Assembly (NCBI RefSeq): GCF_039541115.1
Contig: NZ_BAABFP010000002.1
Coordinates: forward strand, 744,001-808,000
Length of the DNA: 64,000 bases
Direction of reading: 5' to 3'
DNA from: Angustibacter luteus
GTDB taxonomy: Bacteria; Actinomycetota; Actinomycetes; Actinomycetales; Angustibacteraceae
The translations under genes and the position numbers were made by a program. The stretch's first letter is position 1. The number at the start of each line of letters is the position of its first letter. The notes below the pieces were generated by a model. It made no database searches, was not told the DNA's origin, and saw nothing but the letters and a program-made list of their open reading frames with translations. Shown here piece after piece: positions 3,595 to 15,098 of this stretch.

Positions 3595-4471
3595 CACCTC
3601 CGCCCGGCTCGAGGTCCGCAAGACCTACAAGCTGTACGTCGGCGGGAAGTTCCCGCGCAGCGAGTCCGGCCGCTCCTACGAGGTCACCGACTCCCGGGGC
3701 CGCTTCCTCGCGAACGCCGCCCAGGGGTCCCGCAAGGACGCCCGGGACGCCGTCGTCGCCGCCCGTGGCGCGGTGAAGGGCTGGTCCGGCGCGACCGCCT
3801 TCAACCGGGGCCAGGTGCTCTACCGGGTCGCCGAGCTGCTGGAGGGCCGTCGCGCCCAGTTCGTCGACGAGGTGTCCCGCGGCGAGGGGCTGACCCGTCC
3901 GCGGGCGGAGAAGGCCGTGGACGCCGCGATCGACCGCTGGGTCTGGTACGCCGGCTGGTCCGACAAGATCGCCCAGGTGCTCGGCGGCCTCAACCCGGTC
4001 GCCGGACCGTACTTCGACATCAGTGCACCGGAGCCGACCGGGGTGGTGGCAGTCCTTGCCCCGCAACGGTCCTCGCTGCTCGGGCTGGTCTCGGTCATCG
4101 CGCCGGCGATCGTCAGCGGCAACACCGTCGTCGTCCTGGCCAGCGAGCACCGCCCCCTGCCCGCGGTGACGTTGAGCGAGGTGCTCGCGACGTCCGACGT
4201 GCCCGGCGGTGTGGTCAACGTGCTGACCGGCCGGACCGCCGAGGTGGCGCCGTGGCTGGCCTCGCACATGGACGTCAACGCCATCGACCTGGCCGGGGCC
4301 GTCGACGCCGACGGTGTCGCGTGGGCCGATCTCGAGGTCGCCGCCGCGGACAACCTCAAGCGGGTCCTGCGGCCGGCCGACGCCGAGCCCGACTGGCGCA
4401 CGACCCCTGGCCTGGAACGGATCAAGGCGTTCGTGGAGACCAAGACCGTATGGCACCCCAAGGGGACCTGA
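3584..4471 (+). CDS. Half-length aldehyde dehydrogenase-like protein, probable pseudo-enzyme partner
   Basis: 295 residues beginning at TTG 3584. Residues 15-230 or so follow the aldehyde dehydrogenase fold (YVGGKF start, GLNPV linker, an equivalent of PWNFP reading LAPQRSSLL, and the SGNTVVV strand), but the whole catalytic half is missing: there is no glutamate motif and no cysteine motif. Instead the chain ends in a short tail with YAGW-type and LERIKAFVETKTVWHP segments. I see no frameshift or leftover catalytic sequence downstream, so this looks like a stable, coding, shortened protein rather than decay. It probably forms a complex with, or regulates, the full enzyme upstream. Overlaps the upstream gene by 11 bases and the downstream gene by 22. 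Confidence 0.82.
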   Translation: MPTDTSARLEVRKTYKLYVGGKFPRSESGRSYEVTDSRGRFLANAAQGSRKDARDAVVAARGAVKGWSGATAFNRGQVLYRVAELLEGRRAQFVDEVSRGEGLTRPRAEKAVDAAIDRWVWYAGWSDKIAQVLGGLNPVAGPYFDISAPEPTGVVAVLAPQRSSLLGLVSVIAPAIVSGNTVVVLASEHRPLPAVTLSEVLATSDVPGGVVNVLTGRTAEVAPWLASHMDVNAIDLAGAVDADGVAWADLEVAAADNLKRVLRPADAEPDWRTTPGLERIKAFVETKTVWHPKGT

Positions 4472-5223
4472 ACGCGCCGGACTTCGTCGTCGAGCTCAGC
4501 CGGCGCGAGTCCGCGGCCACCTGGGACGTGACGGGCGGGATCGCCGTCGCGAACCCCACCTACGCGCACTCCCACGAGCAGAACCGCCTGCTGCTGACCG
4601 AGCCGACGCCGTGGGCGGTCGCCCTCGCGGACGCCGAGCGCGTCCAGGCGGAGGCCGGTTTGGCCCACCGTCGGGTCGACTGGCTGAACGGCGCGCCGCC
4701 CGACGTCCCGGACGTGCTGCCCGACGGGTGGTCCCTGTCGCGCACCGTCTTCATGGAGCTGACGCGCGACCTCGTCGGCGAGCCGGGCGCGGCGGAGCTG
4801 CTGACCTTCGACGACGTCCGGACGGCCCTGTGGGCCGACTGGCGCTCGCACCTGCCGGACGTGCCGGACGAGGTGATCGAGCACCTGGCCGGTCGCCGGC
4901 GCGCGACGGAGCGGGCCTGCGCCGTGACCTGGCACGCGGTGGTGCTGGACGGCGAGGTCGTGTCGTTCTGCGACCTGCGGGTGATGGCGGTCGGCGACGA
5001 GCTGATGGCGCAGATCGAGGACGTCGTCACCCTGCCTGCCCATCGCGGTCACGGCTACGCGCGGATGATCGTGGTGCACGCGGTGCGCGCGGCCCAGGCC
5101 GCCGGGGCAGACCGGATCTGGCTCGAGGCGGACGCCGACGACTGGCCGCGGGAGTTCTACTCCCGCATGGGATTCACCGAGTGCGGCCCGACCCCGGTCG
5201 TCGCGATGAGGCAGCTGCCGTGA
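4450..5223 (+). CDS. GNAT family N-acetyltransferase, tandem paralogue 1
   Basis: 257 residues. The C-terminal third is a GNAT domain: LPAHRGHGYARMIV is the acetyl-CoA loop and DDWPREFYSRMGF the terminal strand. The N-terminal half is unfamiliar but is shared with the next gene (SHEQNRLLLTEPTPW, HRRVDWLNG, LSRTVFMEL), so the two form a tandem duplication with a common extended architecture, perhaps a degenerate first acetyltransferase domain. ATG at 4450 lies inside the end of the dehydrogenase-like gene and gives the N-terminus aligned with its twin. Substrate unknown; operon position next to deoC may be incidental. Confidence 0.85.
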   Translation: MAPQGDLNAPDFVVELSRRESAATWDVTGGIAVANPTYAHSHEQNRLLLTEPTPWAVALADAERVQAEAGLAHRRVDWLNGAPPDVPDVLPDGWSLSRTVFMELTRDLVGEPGAAELLTFDDVRTALWADWRSHLPDVPDEVIEHLAGRRRATERACAVTWHAVVLDGEVVSFCDLRVMAVGDELMAQIEDVVTLPAHRGHGYARMIVVHAVRAAQAAGADRIWLEADADDWPREFYSRMGFTECGPTPVVAMRQLP

Positions 5224-5990
5224 CGGCGGTCGAACACACTGGGCTGGGGCTGGGGCCGAGGTTCCTGCTGGAGCTGGGACGTCGCGAGGGCACGTCCTGG
5301 GAGCCGGTGCAGGGCGGCATCGCGATCCTGCACGAGGGGTTCCCGTTCTCCCACGAGCACAACCGGCTGCTGCTGACCGAGCGCGTGCCGTGGGACGTCG
5401 CGGTCGCCGAGGCCGAGCGGGTGCTCGGCGCCGCTGGGGTCGCGCACCGCCGCATCGACTGGCTGGCCGGCGGGCCGGGTGGCGTCGACGCCGCCTGGGA
5501 CCTCTCGCACACCGTCTTCATGGAGCTCGTCGGCGACGTCGTCGGTGGCCCGGGTAGTGCTGCGGTCGTGCCGTTCGAGTCGCTGCGGGACGCGATGCGC
5601 GAGGACTGGCGCGGGTGGGTTCCAGACGCGGACGACGACGAGCTGGACCAGATCGTCGACCGCCGCCGCGCCACCGCGGCCGCCTGCGACCTGACCTGGC
5701 ACGCGGTGCTCGTGGACGGCGAGCCGCTGACCTGGTGCGACCTGCGACTGCTCGAGGTGGACGGCGCGCTGGTGGGGCAGCTGGACGAGCTGCTGACCCT
5801 GCCGGAGCACCGCGGGCACGGCTACGGCCGCGCGGCCCTGACCCACGCGACGCTGACCGCCGTCGCCGCCGGTGCGACGTCGGTGTTCATGGAGGCGGAC
5901 CGGGACGACTGGCCGCGCGAACTCTACTCCCGCATGGGTTTCGTGGTTCGCGGACCGGAGACCACCGTGGCCGTGCTGGAGGCGTCGTGA
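5220..5990 (+). CDS. GNAT family N-acetyltransferase, tandem paralogue 2
   Basis: 256 residues, the twin of the preceding gene: SHEHNRLLLTERVPW, HRRIDWLAG, LSHTVFMEL and DDWPRELYSRMGF are nearly identical between them. LPEHRGHGYGRAAL is the acetyl-CoA loop. GTG at 5220 overlaps the upstream stop. The pair keeps the same length and domain plan, so both are probably functional and may have split substrates. The N-terminal half is not a motif I can name. Confidence 0.85.
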   Translation: MTAVEHTGLGLGPRFLLELGRREGTSWEPVQGGIAILHEGFPFSHEHNRLLLTERVPWDVAVAEAERVLGAAGVAHRRIDWLAGGPGGVDAAWDLSHTVFMELVGDVVGGPGSAAVVPFESLRDAMREDWRGWVPDADDDELDQIVDRRRATAAACDLTWHAVLVDGEPLTWCDLRLLEVDGALVGQLDELLTLPEHRGHGYGRAALTHATLTAVAAGATSVFMEADRDDWPRELYSRMGFVVRGPETTVAVLEAS

Positions 5991-7566: not shown

Positions 7567-7743
7567 GTCGCCGGGATCGTCGACTGCCAGTCCTCGTAGC
7601 CGCTGACCTTGCCAGTCAGGGCGCCCACCGCCACACGTGGGTCTCCGTGCGTCGGGTCAGTGGGCATTCACGTTCCGGATGCGCTGACCCGGACCCACTC
7701 TGCGACAACGGTTCTGTCGGTGGTGGCCGATACCGTCCTCTTC

Positions 7744-9083
7744 ATGACCTCAGCGACGAGCGGCCCACCGGATGCGCCGTCCGGCGTGTTCGCGGGCGCG
7801 CTGCGCGAGCTCGATGCGGGGGGAGCCGCCCGGTCTGGCACCTGTCCGATGGGGAGGTCGCAGCGGCCGTGACCGACCTTGACCGGCTGATCCGGCTCGC
7901 CGAGGCGCAGCAGTTGCGGCTCCTCGCCGAGGCCAGCACACGCGGCCTGCCCGGCCAGCAGGGGCACGCGCGCCTTGAGCAGTGGGTGCGAGCGCAGGTA
8001 CCCACGACATCCCGACGGCTCGCGGCGACCCTGGCCCGTCGAAGTGAACGACTGTTCACCGCTGCGGTGGCGGCCGAGCTGGCGCCGGCGCGGGAGGCGA
8101 TGCTGGCCGGACGGGTCAGTGTCGAGCAGGCGGACGTCGTCGCGCGCACCGTGCACTCGCTCGTCCCGCCGGCCGTCCCAGCCGAGGTCGTGCCCGCGCA
8201 TGTGGTCGTCGAGGCGCAGGCGTGGCTCCTGGACCAGGCCGTCGCGTTCGACCCGACCGAGTTGCGTCGCCTTGCCGACCGCCTCGTCGACCGGCTCGAC
8301 CCCGAGGCCGACGACCGGCTGGCCGCCAGCGAACGCGCGCAGCGGCAGGTGCGTTCGCTGACGCTGGCGACCACCACGGGTGGCATGGTGCACGTCGAAG
8401 GGCTGCTCACCCCGAACTGCGGCGCCGCCCTGCGCACGGCCATCGACGCCTGGTCCGCGCCCCAGCCAGCCGCCAACGGAACTCCGGACCCACGGACGGC
8501 CGCACAACGGCGCCACGACGGGCTCCAGCGGCTGGCCGAGAAGGCCGTCGCCGCACCCGACTTCCTGCCCAGCACCCACGGCAGCCCTTATCGGGTGGTC
8601 GTCACGATGAGCCAGCGCGACCTGGCCGAAGGGCTGGCCCCCACCCTGCCCGACGGTACCCGGCTCAGCCGTGCCGTCACCGGCACACTGCTCTGCGAGG
8701 CCGACGTCGTGCCGGTCCTGGTCGACGGCGTGGGCACCCCGCTGGACGTCGGGCGGACCCAGCGCGCCTTCACGGCACGGCAACGACAGGCGTTGGCGGT
8801 TCGGGACCGGCAGTGCACCTGGCCTGGTTGCGCCGCCCCACCCGAGTGGACGGACGCGCACCACCTCCGACCCTGGCAGCACGACGGGCCGACCGATCTC
8901 GACAACGCAGCGTTGCTGTGCAACCACCATCACCACCACGTGCACCGAGTCGGCATCGACGGCCGGGTCATCGACGGCGCGGTCAGCTGGGACACCGGCC
9001 CACCGGACAGGTCGACAGCACCGAGCATCACCCGCGCGCTGCACCTGGTCCACGACCTCGCGCGACGATGGCGCCTGCCCTGA
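7744..9083 (+). CDS. DUF222 / HNH endonuclease family protein with an apparent frameshift
   Basis: The C-terminal 100 residues hold an HNH nuclease motif: CTWPGC, then TDAHHLRPW and LLCNHHHHHVH, giving paired Cys/His metal ligands and the HNH core. The middle is a DUF222 domain. These 13E12-like proteins occur in many copies in actinobacteria; their biological role is not settled. The N-terminus starting at ATG 7744 (MTSATSGPPDAP) is in a different frame from the rest. Adding one G to the six-G run at 7818-7823 joins them as LDAGG-SRPVWHLSDGE, the expected family sequence. So this is a one-base deletion, a sequencing error, or a slippery site. If the frameshift is real, translation might restart at GTG 7869. 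Confidence 0.8.
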
Positions 9084-9221
9084 GCAGCCACTTTCGCAAG
9101 CAAGGGTCTCAGATGCCGAGAAGTTCCGTCTCGCGGTGAGAGCCACCCTGCACGGTTGGCTACTTTCGTTGCCAGGCAACGGCTTCGACCGACGCCCCAC
9201 CTCCACGACGAAGGCGACGAC
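9084..9221. promoter_or_regulatory. Upstream region of the sulfonate operon
   Basis: The HNH gene and ssuE are 361 bases apart. This first part holds no gene that I can support and is the likely promoter region of the leader peptide and ssu operon. I do not see a convincing -35/-10 pair. Confidence 0.3.
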
Positions 9222-9326
9222 ATGACTGCGGCCCGCACCGACACGGCGATCGCCCTGTCCTGCCGTCACGCTGCGCGTCGCCACGTGGACCTCCAGCGCG
9301 TCTCCAGCGCGCTGTGTCGCGCCTGA
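9222..9326 (+). CDS. Cysteine-containing leader peptide of the sulfur-uptake operon
   Basis: A 34-residue ORF, ATG 9222 to TGA 9324-9326, preceded by GAAGG about 8 bases upstream. The C-terminal part RRHVDLQRVSSALCRA matches the H-V-D-L-x-R-V-x-S-x-x-C signature of the short putative leader peptides found ahead of sulfur-assimilation operons in streptomycetes and mycobacteria. Cysteine codons fall at residues 14 and 32. In the better-studied cases, ribosome stalling or passage on such a uORF senses cysteine supply and changes expression of the downstream operon. Here it lies 119 bases ahead of ssuE with a hairpin in between, so cysteine-responsive attenuation is the natural inference. Confidence 0.72.
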   Translation: MTAARTDTAIALSCRHAARRHVDLQRVSSALCRA

Positions 9327-9347
9327 GCGCCACCTCCCCCTCCGCGC

Positions 9348-9377
9348 GATCGTGACGGCCGACGCCGTCTGACGATC
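9348..9377 (+). promoter_or_regulatory. Hairpin between leader peptide and ssuE, candidate attenuator
   Basis: GATCGTGACGG (9348-9358) pairs with CCGTCTGACGATC (9365-9377), leaving a two-base bulge and a six-base loop. It begins 22 bases after the leader-peptide stop and ends 67 bases before the ssuE start. There is no T-run after it, so if it terminates transcription it would do so with help (for example Rho), or it acts by RNA folding alone. Confidence 0.4.
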
Positions 9378-9444
9378 ACCCCTGCCCTGCAACGGATCGG
9401 GCTCCCGCCTATCCGTCGATACCCCCGTGCCCGAAAGGACCCCC

Positions 9445-10020
9445 ATGGCTGTCATCGCCACCATCTCCAGCAGTCCCTCCCCCACCTCCAGGACCGACGC
9501 CGTGCTCGCGGACGTGACCCACCGCCTGCAGCGCGACGGGCACGTCGTCGTCCCGATCGTGCTGCGAGACCTCCCCGCCCAGCCACTGCTGCACGGGGTC
9601 GCGGACGACCCGGCGGTCGCCGCCGCAGTGGCCGCACTCGAGGCGGCCGATGCCGTCGTCGTCACCACTCCGGTCTACAAGGCGGCGTACAGCGGGCTGC
9701 TCAAGACGTTCCTCGACCTGTTGCCGCAGTTCGCGTTGCGCGGCAAGGTCGTCCTGCCGCTGGCCACCGGCGGTGCCCAGGCCCATGTGCTGGCCGTCGA
9801 CTACGCCCTGCGGCCCGTGCTGGCCAGCCTGGCGCCGAGCGCCATCACCCCCGGGTGGTTCGTCCTGGCCTCCCAGGTCACCGTCTTCGACAGTGGCGAT
9901 GCCGTCATCGACGAGGACGCCGCGCGACCCCTGCGCGAGGTGACCGGCATCTTCCTCGATGCCGTCGCCGGCGCTTCTCTGCTCACCGTGCCAGCCGCTC
10001 GCCGCGAAGCGGTCGCGTGA
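9445..10020 (+). CDS. ssuE: NADPH-dependent FMN reductase, SsuE type
   Basis: 191 residues, the usual SsuE length. Flavodoxin-like reductase that supplies reduced FMN to partner monooxygenases. The phosphate-binding TISSSPSPTSRT loop near the N-terminus and TTPVYKAAYSGLLKTFLD in the middle (P-V-Y-x-x-x-Y-S-x-x-L-K) are diagnostic for the SsuE/MsuE branch. ATG at 9445 is chosen over the in-frame GTG at 9427 because GAAAGGA lies 8 bases upstream of it. First gene of a coupled ssuEABC-monooxygenase-dioxygenase operon, so its reduced FMN most likely feeds the NtaA-type monooxygenase at 12853. Confidence 0.92.
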   Translation: MAVIATISSSPSPTSRTDAVLADVTHRLQRDGHVVVPIVLRDLPAQPLLHGVADDPAVAAAVAALEAADAVVVTTPVYKAAYSGLLKTFLDLLPQFALRGKVVLPLATGGAQAHVLAVDYALRPVLASLAPSAITPGWFVLASQVTVFDSGDAVIDEDAARPLREVTGIFLDAVAGASLLTVPAARREAVA

Positions 10021-11066
10021 TGCGCCGCCTTGCGGTCCTTGCCGCCACCATCGCCGCCTCCATCGCCGGCACGCTCGCCCTCGGCACGCTCGCCGCCTGC
10101 TCGCTGCCCACCAGCGAAGCCAGCGAATCCAGCGACGGCAGTGGCGGTGTCACGCTCCGGTACCAGGGCAGCGCGAACTCCGTGAGCCTGCCCGAGCTCG
10201 CGGCCGACCTGGGCTACCTCCCCACCGTGAAGCTGAAGTGGGTCGGCAACACGATCAGCGGCCCGCAGGACATCCAGTCCGCGGCGACCGGTCAGACCGA
10301 CTTCGGCGGCGCCTTCGCCGGTGCCGTGGTGAAGCTCATCGACGCCGGCGCCCCGGTCAAGGCCGTCGTGAACTACTACGGCGAGGACGCCAAGTCCTTC
10401 AACGGGTTCTTCGTGCTCGACGGGAGCCCCATCCACTCGCCCCGCGACCTGATCGGCAAGAAGATCGCCGTCAACACCCTGGGCGCGCACGCCGAGGCCG
10501 TGATCGACACGTACCTGCAGCAGAACGGACTCAGCACCAGCGAGATCAAGCAGGTCCAGCTCGTCGTGCTGCCGCCCAACGACACCGAGCAGGCGCTGCG
10601 CCGCGGCCAGATCGACGTCGCCACCCTCAGTGGGGTGCTGCAGGACCACGCCGTCGCCTCCGGCGGCGTCCGGTCGCTGTTCAGCGACTACGAGCTGTTC
10701 GGCGCGTTCAACGGTGGCCAGTACGTGCTGCGCGACGACTTCATCGCGAAGCACCCGGCAGCGGCTAGGGAATTCGTCTCGGGGGTGGCGAAGGCCATCG
10801 AGTGGGAGCGCGCCACCCCGCGCAAGGACGTGATCGCCCGCTTCACCGAGATCATCAATCGGCGCGGCCGGAACGAGAAGACCGACAACCTCCAGTACTG
10901 GAAGAGCGTGGCCATCCCGTCGAAGGGCGGCGCGATCAGCGACGTCGACTTCACCCGCTGGCAGGCCTGGCTGGAGCAGTCCGGCATCGTCGGCCGGGGT
11001 GAGCTGAAGCCGGGCGAGCTGTACACCAACGAGTTCAACGCGCTCGCCCCCGGCGGTGGCTCATGA
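10020..11066 (+). CDS. ssuA: Sulfonate-type ABC transporter substrate-binding lipoprotein
   Basis: 348 residues. The N-terminus is a lipoprotein signal with a lipobox ending L-A-A-C at about residue 28 followed by a Ser-rich linker. The rest is the SsuA/TauA/NMT1 fold: SVSLPELAADLGY, the GQTDFGGAF segment and FVLDGSPIHSPRDLIGKKIAVN are typical. It captures sulfonates or related organosulfur compounds outside the membrane for SsuBC. Start: ATG 10020 in an ATGA overlap with ssuE (GTG 10017 is an alternative). Exact ligand unknown. Confidence 0.9.
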   Translation: MRRLAVLAATIAASIAGTLALGTLAACSLPTSEASESSDGSGGVTLRYQGSANSVSLPELAADLGYLPTVKLKWVGNTISGPQDIQSAATGQTDFGGAFAGAVVKLIDAGAPVKAVVNYYGEDAKSFNGFFVLDGSPIHSPRDLIGKKIAVNTLGAHAEAVIDTYLQQNGLSTSEIKQVQLVVLPPNDTEQALRRGQIDVATLSGVLQDHAVASGGVRSLFSDYELFGAFNGGQYVLRDDFIAKHPAAAREFVSGVAKAIEWERATPRKDVIARFTEIINRRGRNEKTDNLQYWKSVAIPSKGGAISDVDFTRWQAWLEQSGIVGRGELKPGELYTNEFNALAPGGGS

Positions 11067-11917
11067 CGGCCAAGATCTGCCTCCGCTCGGTGACCAAGGA
11101 GTTCCTGGTCCGCCCCAGCAGGGGTCAGTCCGCGGGCAGCGTGCTGCGCGCACTGGAGGACGTCACCCTCGACGTCCCCGACGGCCAGTTCCTCACCCTG
11201 GTCGGGCCGAGCGGGTCCGGCAAGACCACGCTGCTCGACCTCCTCGGCGGGCTCAGCTCCCCGACGTCGGGCGAGGTCCTGGTGGACGGGGCGCGCGTCG
11301 CGGGACCCGGACTGGACCGCGGCATCGTGTTCCAGCAGTACGCCCTCTTCCCGTGGCGCACCGCGCTGGCCAACGTGGAGTTCGGTCTCGAGCAGCAGCG
11401 GCTGCCCCGACGCGAACGCCGTGAACGGGCTCGCCAGCACCTCGACCTGGTCGGCCTGAACGGCTTCGAGGACCGCTACCCGCACGAGCTGTCCGGGGGG
11501 ATGAAGCAGCGCGTCGCCATCGCCCGGAGCCTGGCCTACCAGCCCAGCGTCCTGCTGATGGACGAACCGTTCGCTGCCCTCGACGCCCAGACCCGCGAGC
11601 AGCTGCAGGACGAGCTGCTGCGGATCTGGCGGACCACCGCGACGACCGTCGTGTTCATCACCCACGGCATCGAGGAGGCCGTCTACCTCGGGCAGCGGGT
11701 GGCCGTGCTGAGCTCGCGCCCGGGCCGGCTCAAGGCCCTGGTGGACGTCGACCTCGGCGACCGCGCCCTCGCTCAGGACGGGGCAGACCTGCGCGCCGAT
11801 CCGCGGTTCGTGGAGTACCGCCACCAGATCTGGGCGCTGCTGCACGACGAGGTCCGACGCGCCCAGGACGCCGGGCACCGCAAGATCCAGCCCGACGGCA
11901 CCGAGAGGGCGGCCTGA
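11063..11917 (+). CDS. ssuB: Sulfonate-type ABC transporter ATP-binding protein
   Basis: 284 residues. Walker A GPSGSGKTTLL starts at about residue 48, the signature LSGGMKQR at about 143 and Walker B LLMDEPFAALD at about 166, with the H-loop ITHGIEEAV after it. FQQYALFPWRTAL is the Q-loop typical of nitrate/sulfonate/taurine importers. It powers SsuC. Start ATG overlaps the ssuA stop (ATGA) and its own stop overlaps the ssuC start. Confidence 0.95.
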   Translation: MTAKICLRSVTKEFLVRPSRGQSAGSVLRALEDVTLDVPDGQFLTLVGPSGSGKTTLLDLLGGLSSPTSGEVLVDGARVAGPGLDRGIVFQQYALFPWRTALANVEFGLEQQRLPRRERRERARQHLDLVGLNGFEDRYPHELSGGMKQRVAIARSLAYQPSVLLMDEPFAALDAQTREQLQDELLRIWRTTATTVVFITHGIEEAVYLGQRVAVLSSRPGRLKALVDVDLGDRALAQDGADLRADPRFVEYRHQIWALLHDEVRRAQDAGHRKIQPDGTERAA

Positions 11918-12816
11918 TGAGCACCGTGACCCTGGACCAGCAGCAGGGCGTCGACCGGTCGGCTGCGGACGCCTCGACGTCGAACCCGCCCCCGGTCGCC
12001 GCACCGGCCCACGGGAGATGGCGCGAGGTCGGCCGGCGAGGTCTGCGGCGGGCCCTGCGGGTGGCGTGGCACTCGGCCGCCCTGGTCGCCTTCCTGGTGC
12101 TGTGGGAGCTGGCGCCGCTGTACCTGATGGACTCCTCCCGACGCGTCTTCCTGCCGCCGCTGCACCAGGTGCTGCAGGCGACGTGGGGGCTGATCGAGAC
12201 CGGTCAGCTGCAGCAGCACCTGGCGGCCAGCCTGACCCGCGCGGTGCTGGGCTTCGGCTTCGCCGTGGTCGCCGGGATCAGCCTCGGCCTGCTGGTGGCC
12301 TGGTACGAGCCGCTGCGCCAGCTGATGACCCCGTTGCTGGAGCTGTTCCGCAACACCGCCGCGCTGGCCCTGCTGCCCGTGTTCGTGCTGCTGCTGGGCA
12401 TCGGCGAGGTGAGCAAGGTGGCGATCGTCGCGTACGCCAGCTTCTTCCCGGTGCTGCTGAACACCGTCGCGGGCGTGCGCACGGTCGACCCGCTGCTGGT
12501 CCGGGCCGCCCGGTCGCTGGGTCTGTCCAGCGTCCAGCTCTTCCGCAAGGTGATCCTGCCCTCGGCGGTCCCCACGATCTTCACCGGCATCCGGATGGCC
12601 GGCACGGCCTCGATCCTCGTGCTGATCGCCGCCGAGATGGTGGGGGCCAAGGCAGGCCTGGGCTACCTGATCGTCAACGCGCAGAGCAGCTTCCAGATCC
12701 CCGACATGTACGCCGGCATCCTCACCGTCTCGGTGCTCGGGCTGCTGGTCAACGTCGGCCTGGTCCGGCTCGAGCGGCACTTCTCCCGCTGGCGCGTCGA
12801 CGCCACCACCCGTTGA
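11917..12816 (+). CDS. ssuC: Sulfonate-type ABC transporter permease
   Basis: 299 residues, about six transmembrane helices after a 50-residue polar N-terminus. The EAA loop reads AARSLGLSSVQLFRKVILP and is followed by SAVPTIFTGIRMA, the standard contact site for the SsuB ATPase in the SsuC/TauC family. It forms the membrane channel. The start ATG shares its A with the ssuB TGA. A 36-base gap with a GAGAGGA ribosome site leads to the next gene. Confidence 0.94.
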   Translation: MSTVTLDQQQGVDRSAADASTSNPPPVAAPAHGRWREVGRRGLRRALRVAWHSAALVAFLVLWELAPLYLMDSSRRVFLPPLHQVLQATWGLIETGQLQQHLAASLTRAVLGFGFAVVAGISLGLLVAWYEPLRQLMTPLLELFRNTAALALLPVFVLLLGIGEVSKVAIVAYASFFPVLLNTVAGVRTVDPLLVRAARSLGLSSVQLFRKVILPSAVPTIFTGIRMAGTASILVLIAAEMVGAKAGLGYLIVNAQSSFQIPDMYAGILTVSVLGLLVNVGLVRLERHFSRWRVDATTR

Positions 12817-12852: not shown

Positions 12853-14196
12853 ATGAGCAGCACCGAATCCGCCCCGCGAAGACTGCACCTGAATGCCTTC
12901 ATCATGGCCAACGGGCACCACGAGGCGGCCTGGCGGCACCCGGCCGTCGACCCGCGCGCCGCCCTGACCCTGCAGCACTACGTCGACATCGCCCGGACCG
13001 CCGAGCGCGGCCGCCTGGACTCGATCTTCCTCGCCGACGCCGTCGCCCTGCACGGCAACGTGAAGCACAACACGCACAGCGCGTTCGAGCCGCTGACCCT
13101 GCTGTCCGCGCTGGCGGCCTCGACGCAGCACGTCGGGCTGATCGCCACCGCGTCCACCACCTACAACCACCCGTACACGCTGGCCCGGGCGTTCGCCTCG
13201 CTGGACCACCTCAGCGGTGGCCGGGCCGGCTGGAATATCGTCACGTCGGCCGGGCAGGACGAGGCGCTGAACTTCGGCCTGCCCGGACGGCCGGACGGCC
13301 GGTACGCCCGGGCCACCGAGTTCGTCGAGGTCACCACGGCACTGTGGGACAGCTTCGACGACGCGGCGGTGCTGGCCGACAAGCGCACCGGGATCTACGC
13401 GGACACCGACCTGATCCGCCCCGTCGACCATCACGGCGAGCACTTCGACGTCCGCGGTCCGCTGAACATCCGACGGCCGGTCCAGGGGTATCCCCTGCTC
13501 GTGCAGGCGGGTTCGTCCGAGGCGGGCAAGGAGTACGCGGCCCAGTTCGCGGAGGCCGTCTTCACCGCGCAGCAGACCCTGAACGACGGGCGAGCGTTCT
13601 ACGCGGACCTCAAGGGCCGGTTGGCGAGCCACGGACGGCGCCCGGCCGAGCTGCTCGTCCTCCCCGGGATTAGCCCGGTGATCGGCCGAACCGAGGCCGA
13701 GGCCCACGCCAAGGAGGCCGAGCTCACGGCGCTGATCAGTCCGGCGTACGGACTGGCGCAGCTGTCGGCGATGCTCGACACCCGGCTGACCGAGGCCGAC
13801 CTGGATGGCCCGCTGCCGGACGTCGGCACCGCCACCGAGGGCAACCAGAGCCGGTTCACCCTGGTCACCGACCTGGCCCGGCGCGAGTCGCTGACCGTCC
13901 GCCAGCTGATCGAGCGGCTGGCCGGCGGCCGGGGCCACCGGGTCTTCGCCGGCACTCCGGAGCAGGTGGCGGACCAGATCGAGGAGTGGTTCACCGGCGG
14001 GGCGGCGGACGGCTTCAACGTGATGCCGCCGACGCTGCCCGGCGGCCTGACCGACTTCGTCGACCTCGTCGTCCCCGAGCTCCAGCGTCGGGGCCTGTTC
14101 CGCACCGAGTACGAGGGCTCGACCCTGCGCGAGAACTACGGGCTGGCCAGACCGGCCAACCGCCTGCACCACAACCAGAAGGAGACCGCAGCATGA
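12853..14196 (+). CDS. NtaA/DmoA/SnaA-family FMN-dependent monooxygenase
   Basis: 447 residues, luciferase-like TIM barrel. The N-terminal LHLNAFIMANGHHEAAWR and central HLSGGRAGWNIVTS are signatures of the nitrilotriacetate monooxygenase component A group, which includes dimethyl-sulfide and dibenzothiophene-sulfone monooxygenases. These use FMNH2 and O2. With ssuE, a sulfonate importer and a taurine-type dioxygenase around it, the most likely job is oxidative release of sulfite from an organosulfur compound; the exact substrate cannot be read from the sequence. It is not a close SsuD. Its stop overlaps the next start by four bases. Confidence 0.88.
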   Translation: MSSTESAPRRLHLNAFIMANGHHEAAWRHPAVDPRAALTLQHYVDIARTAERGRLDSIFLADAVALHGNVKHNTHSAFEPLTLLSALAASTQHVGLIATASTTYNHPYTLARAFASLDHLSGGRAGWNIVTSAGQDEALNFGLPGRPDGRYARATEFVEVTTALWDSFDDAAVLADKRTGIYADTDLIRPVDHHGEHFDVRGPLNIRRPVQGYPLLVQAGSSEAGKEYAAQFAEAVFTAQQTLNDGRAFYADLKGRLASHGRRPAELLVLPGISPVIGRTEAEAHAKEAELTALISPAYGLAQLSAMLDTRLTEADLDGPLPDVGTATEGNQSRFTLVTDLARRESLTVRQLIERLAGGRGHRVFAGTPEQVADQIEEWFTGGAADGFNVMPPTLPGGLTDFVDLVVPELQRRGLFRTEYEGSTLRENYGLARPANRLHHNQKETAA

Positions 14197-15098
14197 CCAC
14201 CATCGCCACCGACCGAGACGTCCGCCGGCTCACCGGCCGCATCGGCGCCGAGATCCTCGGGGTCGACATCACCCGACCCCTCGACGCCGAGACCGTGTCG
14301 TTCCTGCGCACCGCGCTGCACGAGCGCAAGGCACTCGTCTTCCGGAACGCACCGCTGGACGACGACGGCCAGCAGCGTTTCGCCGCTCACTTCGGACCGC
14401 TGACCACGGCCCACCCCACGGTCGCGGCCGTCGAAGGCGCGCCGCGCGTCCTCCCGGTGGACAGCGAGCGTGGGGTGGCCAATCAGTGGCACACGGATGT
14501 CACGTTCGTGCAGGCCCCACCGTCGGCCACCACGTTGTCCAGCAAGGTCGTGCCCCCGTACGGCGGTGAGACGCTCATCGCCAACACCGGAGCCGCCTAC
14601 CGCGCCCTGCCCGAACCGCTGCGCGCGTTCGCCGACACGCTGTGGGCGGTGCACACCAACGACTACGACTACGCGCAGCCGCCGGAGGACGAGGACGACG
14701 CGGTGCGCGAGCGGCGGGCCGAGTTCACCTCGACCACGTTCGAGACCGCCCACCCCGTGGTACGCGTGCACCCGGAGACGGGCGAGCGGGGGCTGTACAT
14801 CGGCGGTTTCGCTCAGCGGATCGTCGGGCTGGGCAAGAGTGAGAGCCGGGACGTGCTCCGGCTGCTGCAGGCGTACGTGACACGACCGGAGAACGTCGTG
14901 CGGGTGGCCTGGGAGCCCGACCAGGTGGTGGTGTTCGACAACCGGATCACCCAGCACTACGCGGTGGACAACTACGACGGCCTGGCCCGGCGGTTGCACC
15001 GTGTGACGGTGGCCGGTCCGGTGCCGGTGGGCGTGAACGGCGAGACGAGCCGCGCCATCCGGGGCGACGCCACGCACTACAGCGGAGGCCCCGCCTAG
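14193..15098 (+). CDS. TauD/TfdA-family alpha-ketoglutarate-dependent dioxygenase
   Basis: 301 residues. The facial triad of Fe(II) is visible: H100 and D102 in NQWHTDVTF and H255 in ITQHYAVDNY; an arginine about eleven residues later (RRLHRVTVAG) binds alpha-ketoglutarate. The N-terminal GRIGAEILGVDI and the GGETLIAN segment fit TauD. The reaction couples alpha-ketoglutarate decarboxylation to hydroxylation of a sulfonate or sulfate ester, releasing sulfite or sulfate. It is the last gene of the ssu operon and overlaps the monooxygenase stop (ATGA). Sulfur substrate is inferred from context. Confidence 0.93.
   Translation: MTTIATDRDVRRLTGRIGAEILGVDITRPLDAETVSFLRTALHERKALVFRNAPLDDDGQQRFAAHFGPLTTAHPTVAAVEGAPRVLPVDSERGVANQWHTDVTFVQAPPSATTLSSKVVPPYGGETLIANTGAAYRALPEPLRAFADTLWAVHTNDYDYAQPPEDEDDAVRERRAEFTSTTFETAHPVVRVHPETGERGLYIGGFAQRIVGLGKSESRDVLRLLQAYVTRPENVVRVAWEPDQVVVFDNRITQHYAVDNYDGLARRLHRVTVAGPVPVGVNGETSRAIRGDATHYSGGPA

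Follow-up and report, generated by a model that had tools for sequence, protein, structure and literature searches.

The window analyzed here is a 64,000-nucleotide stretch of Angustibacter luteus DNA, and the leader and operon features described below are all on its forward strand. An upstream open reading frame (uORF) of 34 codons is found at positions 9222-9326, with an ATG at 9222-9224 and a TGA stop at 9324-9326, and encodes the 34-residue leader peptide MTAARTDTAIALSCRHAARRHVDLQRVSSALCRA. The Shine-Dalgarno (SD)-like GAAGG at 9210-9214, 7 nt upstream of the ATG, is by its sequence a plausible SD for this uORF, and both the reading frame and its ribosome site agree with a previous sequence-only reading of this DNA. 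The peptide contains two cysteines, Cys14, encoded by TGC (9261-9263), and Cys32, encoded by TGT (9315-9317). A spacer of 118 nt (9327-9444; 56 C, 29 G, 17 A, and 16 T) lies between the stop codon and the start of ssuE and includes a 30-nt hairpin (9348-9377) as well as GAAAGGA (9433-9439), recognized from the sequence as the ribosome site of ssuE.

The downstream operon begins with ssuE (9445-10020), encoding an NADPH-dependent FMN reductase that scores over the equivalog cut-off of TIGR03567. The genes that follow encode an SsuA-like ABC substrate-binding lipoprotein (10020-11066; below the cut-off of SsuA_fam, over that of the NMT1 Pfam), an ABC ATPase of the taurine/sulfonate type (11063-11917), an ABC permease of the sulfonate/taurine type (11917-12816), an FMN-dependent monooxygenase of the NtaA/DmoA family (12853-14196; TIGR03860, over cut-off), and a TauD-family dioxygenase (14193-15098; PF02668, over cut-off). 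The last two matches bear out the combination of a monooxygenase with a dioxygenase that had been proposed for this operon. The label “ssu operon” fits in part: SsuE reaches its cut-off, but the monooxygenase is of the NtaA/DmoA family and not SsuD, and the binding protein, ATPase, and permease reach sulfonate/taurine families only below cut-off.

The uORF peptide matches the NCBIfam model NF042934.1, “putative leader peptide” (type cis_reg_atten), with 33.4 bits against a cut-off of 27 (E 2.4e-8), the family motif covering residues 18-32 (ARRHVDLQRVSSALC, 9273-9317). Membership of NF042934 is defined by a score over the cut-off and by a same-strand short ORF directly upstream of sulfur-metabolism genes, and both are found here. 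The uORF resembles the family in peptide and in position, with no difference at the peptide level; it is genuine and a new addition to this known leader-peptide family. Its score against NF042936, the mycobacterial Ms4527A polycysteine leader, was 23.3 bits, under the cut-off of 45. Matches to NF042934 were found in 58 of the 297 genomes sampled from the order of the window and in 257 of the 395 sampled from its class. Relatives of the uORF precede cysD as well as sulfite/nitrite-reductase-like, taurine-dioxygenase-like, and MetQ-like genes, in keeping with the link to sulfur genes suggested before, and this family membership points to a probable dependence on cysteine. A second, weaker NF042934 match was found in the same genome upstream of a different gene (locus L002). 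Both there and in its same-genus counterpart L004, the next ORF is 155-175 aa long and looks by eye like a cysteine-dioxygenase-type cupin; an NCBIfam search at 1e-10 with the protein downstream of the L002 leader gave no match.

A search based on SsuE uncovered three genomes with the same arrangement, G163 (L035), G065 (L036/L077), and Pedococcus sp. 5OH_020 (L136). Their leaders all have exactly 34 residues, follow the pattern SC....RRHVDL.RVSSALCR, and keep both cysteines, so that leader orthologues upstream of ssuE stand beside the family match in supporting the leader-peptide signature first noticed in the sequence. Over codons 19-33, the window differs from each orthologue by 6-7 synonymous changes and 1 non-synonymous change, and this mostly synonymous divergence points to a translated and selected leader peptide.

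To explore the family further, NF042934 loci were collected from the order and class samples, and 80 distinct leaders were aligned through a motif pattern that caught only 85 of the 123 loci. The invariant cysteine of the motif, Cys32 in the window, is encoded by TGT in 77 of these 80 distinct leaders. By comparison, TGT makes up 10.9% of the cysteine codons (42/387) in the coding ORFs of the same loci, and 11 of the 109 in the window. The binomial probability of such a bias is 3e-70, a value that is too small because the leaders share descent, even if they come from many families. The other leader cysteines are mainly encoded by TGC (30/33 at motif position 5 and 16/17 upstream of the motif), which led us to reject a local composition effect, and codon use is mixed at motif positions 10, 13, and 14. 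In a separate set of leaders, found through SsuE and not through the peptide model, the codon was TGT in 17/17. A conserved RNA helix would explain this constraint poorly, as the wobble bases of the neighboring codons vary. A single tRNA-Cys with a GCA anticodon is expected, so that UGU depends on wobble pairing and should be decoded more slowly than UGC; such slow decoding would suit a sensor role. The stop codon follows the invariant cysteine by 2-4 codons in 53 of the 80 leaders.

Taken with the genes downstream, these observations suggest a model, to which we give a probability of roughly one half, where the uORF, as an NF042934 leader, senses cysteine by way of the ribosome that translates it and controls the ssuE-led organosulfur operon through Rho. 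When Cys-tRNA is plentiful, the ribosome would pass UGU32 and leave at the stop codon just after it, exposing the bare C-rich spacer (9327-9444) to Rho and turning the operon off. Under cysteine shortage, the ribosome would instead stall at the rare UGU32, which lies at the far end of the ORF, and could shield the start of the spacer, allowing transcription of the operon. The logic proposed here is that of tnaC of Escherichia coli, where a ribosome at the end of the leader ORF shields a Rho site; tnaC, however, responds to tryptophan by means of its nascent peptide, whereas the signal proposed for the uORF is an uncharged cysteine codon. The ORF, its family membership, the conservation of peptide, cysteines, and UGU codon, and the C-rich family spacers are observed, whereas it is inferred that cysteine is the signal, that the ribosome stalls at UGU32, and that the output depends on Rho.

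Compared with control upstream regions, the spacers of the family have a larger excess of C over G (mean C-G of 0.18 vs 0.06, p 1e-15), and the spacer of the window is itself only moderately C-rich, its best 40-nt stretch standing at the 68th percentile of the controls. The lack of a terminator, a hairpin that is not shared, the C-rich family spacers, and a stop codon close after the sensor cysteine lead us to favor, as a judgement, a tnaC-like Rho-dependent output over translation attenuation, with the Rho-type control proposed for actinobacterial cys leaders (PMC1262725) as a precedent. Against this choice, translation attenuation is the output reported for the cysteine leaders of M. smegmatis (PMC13236596).

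Translation attenuation would keep the same sensor and change the output: the leader RNA would hide the ribosome site of ssuE, and a ribosome stalled at the cysteine codon would free it. This alternative is possible but less probable. It has its precedent in the M. smegmatis cysteine genes (PMC13236596, PMC9031893), and in the predicted fold, part of the region around the ssuE start is base-paired. However, modeled ribosomes leave the ssuE SD unopened: its free fraction in the window fold is 0.60, against 0.57, 0.59, and 0.46 with a ribosome placed at codon 14, at codon 32, or at the stop. The orthologues show no consistent opening either, and the folding model therefore gives no support to a stalled ribosome freeing the SD, although models of the minimum-free-energy type can miss long-range or cotranscriptional structure.

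A doubtful alternative is that the leader controls the hairpin at 9348-9377, which would act as a terminator or as part of a switch, a role also proposed in the sequence-only reading. The hairpin itself (GATCGTGACGGC-CGAC-GCCGTC-TG-ACGATC; 12 pairs in 30 nt, with a 2-nt bulge) is present between uORF and ssuE as that reading had it, and is strong; the spacer folds better than its dinucleotide shuffles, with a z of about -3. The evidence for a regulatory role went the other way. The suggested comparison with related genomes showed that the three ssuE-type orthologues do not share a hairpin, no intrinsic terminator with a U-tract was found in 9000-9480, and the hairpin stays formed (0.96-1.0) with a modeled ribosome at codon 14, at codon 32, or at the stop. 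Across the family, the excess of structure after leader stops is slight (p 0.057). A trp-type attenuator was likewise rejected, as there is neither a terminator with a U-tract nor a mutually exclusive antiterminator set by the position of the ribosome.

One could also imagine that the conserved nascent peptide (R..DL.R) does the sensing and not the decoding of a cysteine codon. The R, D, L, and R of this core are found in all 80 aligned leaders with varying codons, even if the search model itself favors these residues. A peptide sensor, however, has no need of UGU over UGC, and the near-invariance of UGU makes this explanation improbable. That the uORF is a functionless chance ORF is hardly credible: DNA of this kind contains many short ORFs, but this one matches a curated family, has orthologues of equal length, and shows both a synonymous pattern of change and codon-specific conservation.

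Several known systems resemble the uORF in part. Cysteine-responsive polycysteine leaders were described in mycobacteria, as accounts of Canestrari 2020 in later papers have it (PMC9031893, PMC9094748, PMC13236596). Like the uORF, they have an RRxVDLxR core, cysteine codons close to the stop, and cysteine genes downstream, but they carry a run of cysteines where the uORF has only the separated Cys14 and Cys32. They are also leaderless, whereas the uORF appears to be SD-led, its GAAGG arguing against a leaderless start. Actinobacterial cys leaders that lack a terminator, and for which Rho-type control was proposed, were reported by Seliverstov et al. 2005 (PMC1262725); these are like the uORF in the absence of a terminator and in the suspected role of Rho but, unlike it, contain runs of cysteine codons and precede cys and cbs operons. 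The uORFC-8-2 upstream of cysS in Rhodobacterales (PMC8632094) has two conserved cysteine codons and a proposed attenuation, as in the window; its codons are however in tandem with UGC dominant, and it has an intrinsic terminator with a U-run. Lyubetsky 2014, cited in PMC4833913, concerns by its title the regulation of sulfur-related genes.

Scans of the leader loci with Rfam models and a covariance model (R1) uncovered a second regulatory element in many relatives. A SAM-IV or SAM-I riboswitch lies upstream of 21 of the 53 order-level leaders, with a few to about 30 nt between its end and the start codon of the leader; all 53 were checked for SAM-IV, the SAM-I scan covered all except L026 and L028, and some of the 53 do not reach the cut-off of NF042934 and are perhaps not genuine leaders. 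SAM-IV was found upstream of 10 of the 53, of the class-level leader L064, and of L037 and L136, giving the SAM-IV loci L003, L012, L017, L031, L033, L035, L036/L077, L037, L064, L076, L080, L082, and L136. SAM-I (RF00162, S-box) was found upstream of eleven further order-level leaders (L006, L014, L020, L021, L022, L024, L030, L078, L079, L081, and L091). All three ssuE-type orthologues have a SAM-IV riboswitch (RF00634) immediately upstream of the uORF, scoring 102-108 bits against a threshold of 38. The genes after riboswitch-led leaders include CysD (L003, in the genus of the window), MetQ-like proteins, an MsnO8-type oxidoreductase, and ABC binding proteins. At L064, two SAM-IV riboswitches lie back to back, at 1095-1212 on the minus strand and 1314-1430 on the plus strand, and only one is followed by a leader.

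The candidate uORF starts 13-31 nt past the aptamer in 13/13 SAM-IV loci and 4-12 nt past it in the eight SAM-I loci that were parsed. In these eight, the SD of the uORF (in GATGGGAG or GATGGAGG) overlaps the closing 3' strand of the aptamer, which can pair with CCATC at the aptamer 5' end; SAM binding could therefore hide the ribosome site of the leader. A riboswitch-controlled uORF is known upstream of ppe2 in M. tuberculosis (PMC11260477) and is a precedent for SAM riboswitches before the leaders of these relatives, although its ligand is B12, it is not described as an amino-acid sensor, and no riboswitch precedes the copy in the window. Among the 50 parsed loci with the top-scoring SAM-IV riboswitches, none had a leader behind the aptamer, which makes the tandem arrangement a feature of a minority of SAM-IV riboswitches. 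We see an even chance that the family senses a shortage of Cys-tRNA at the wobble codon UGU and that, in many relatives, SAM-I or SAM-IV gates translation of the leader. If so, the two inputs would make up a switch that needs low SAM together with low cysteine to turn on, and the copy in the window would be a single-input form without the riboswitch.

In the window itself, no SAM-I or SAM-IV aptamer was found at gathering threshold over the 64 kb or with model R1. Searching 9084-9444 at E up to 10 gave no Rfam element besides an irrelevant lncRNA match. The 138 nt upstream of the uORF (9084-9221) show no unusual structure (z -0.29), and this region matches only itself in a search for genomic repeats. 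A 15-nt stretch shared with the upstream region of L035 hints at loss of a riboswitch but is too weak a homology to keep, 9 of 1000 shuffles being as good.

With this uORF, the operons headed by a known family of cysteine leaders come to include one for organosulfur use that combines a monooxygenase with a dioxygenase, but the signatures seen across the family, the UGU codon and the SAM tandem, are more useful than a single uORF. The near-invariant UGU offers a one-base synonymous test of codon decoding against the peptide as the sensor, and the SAM riboswitches before the leaders of close relatives suggest that the methionine/SAM and cysteine branches are coupled on one actinobacterial RNA. 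Our literature search, which lay mostly outside subscription journals, found no earlier description of a SAM riboswitch before a cysteine leader or of the UGU constraint.

The gene upstream of the uORF (7647-9083) encodes a DUF222/HNH endonuclease and ends 138 nt before it; this gene is a candidate for having displaced regulatory sequence upstream of the uORF. Further upstream, at 4252-5990, two adjacent and similar acetyltransferase-like coding regions were noticed by eye, apparently the result of a tandem duplication.
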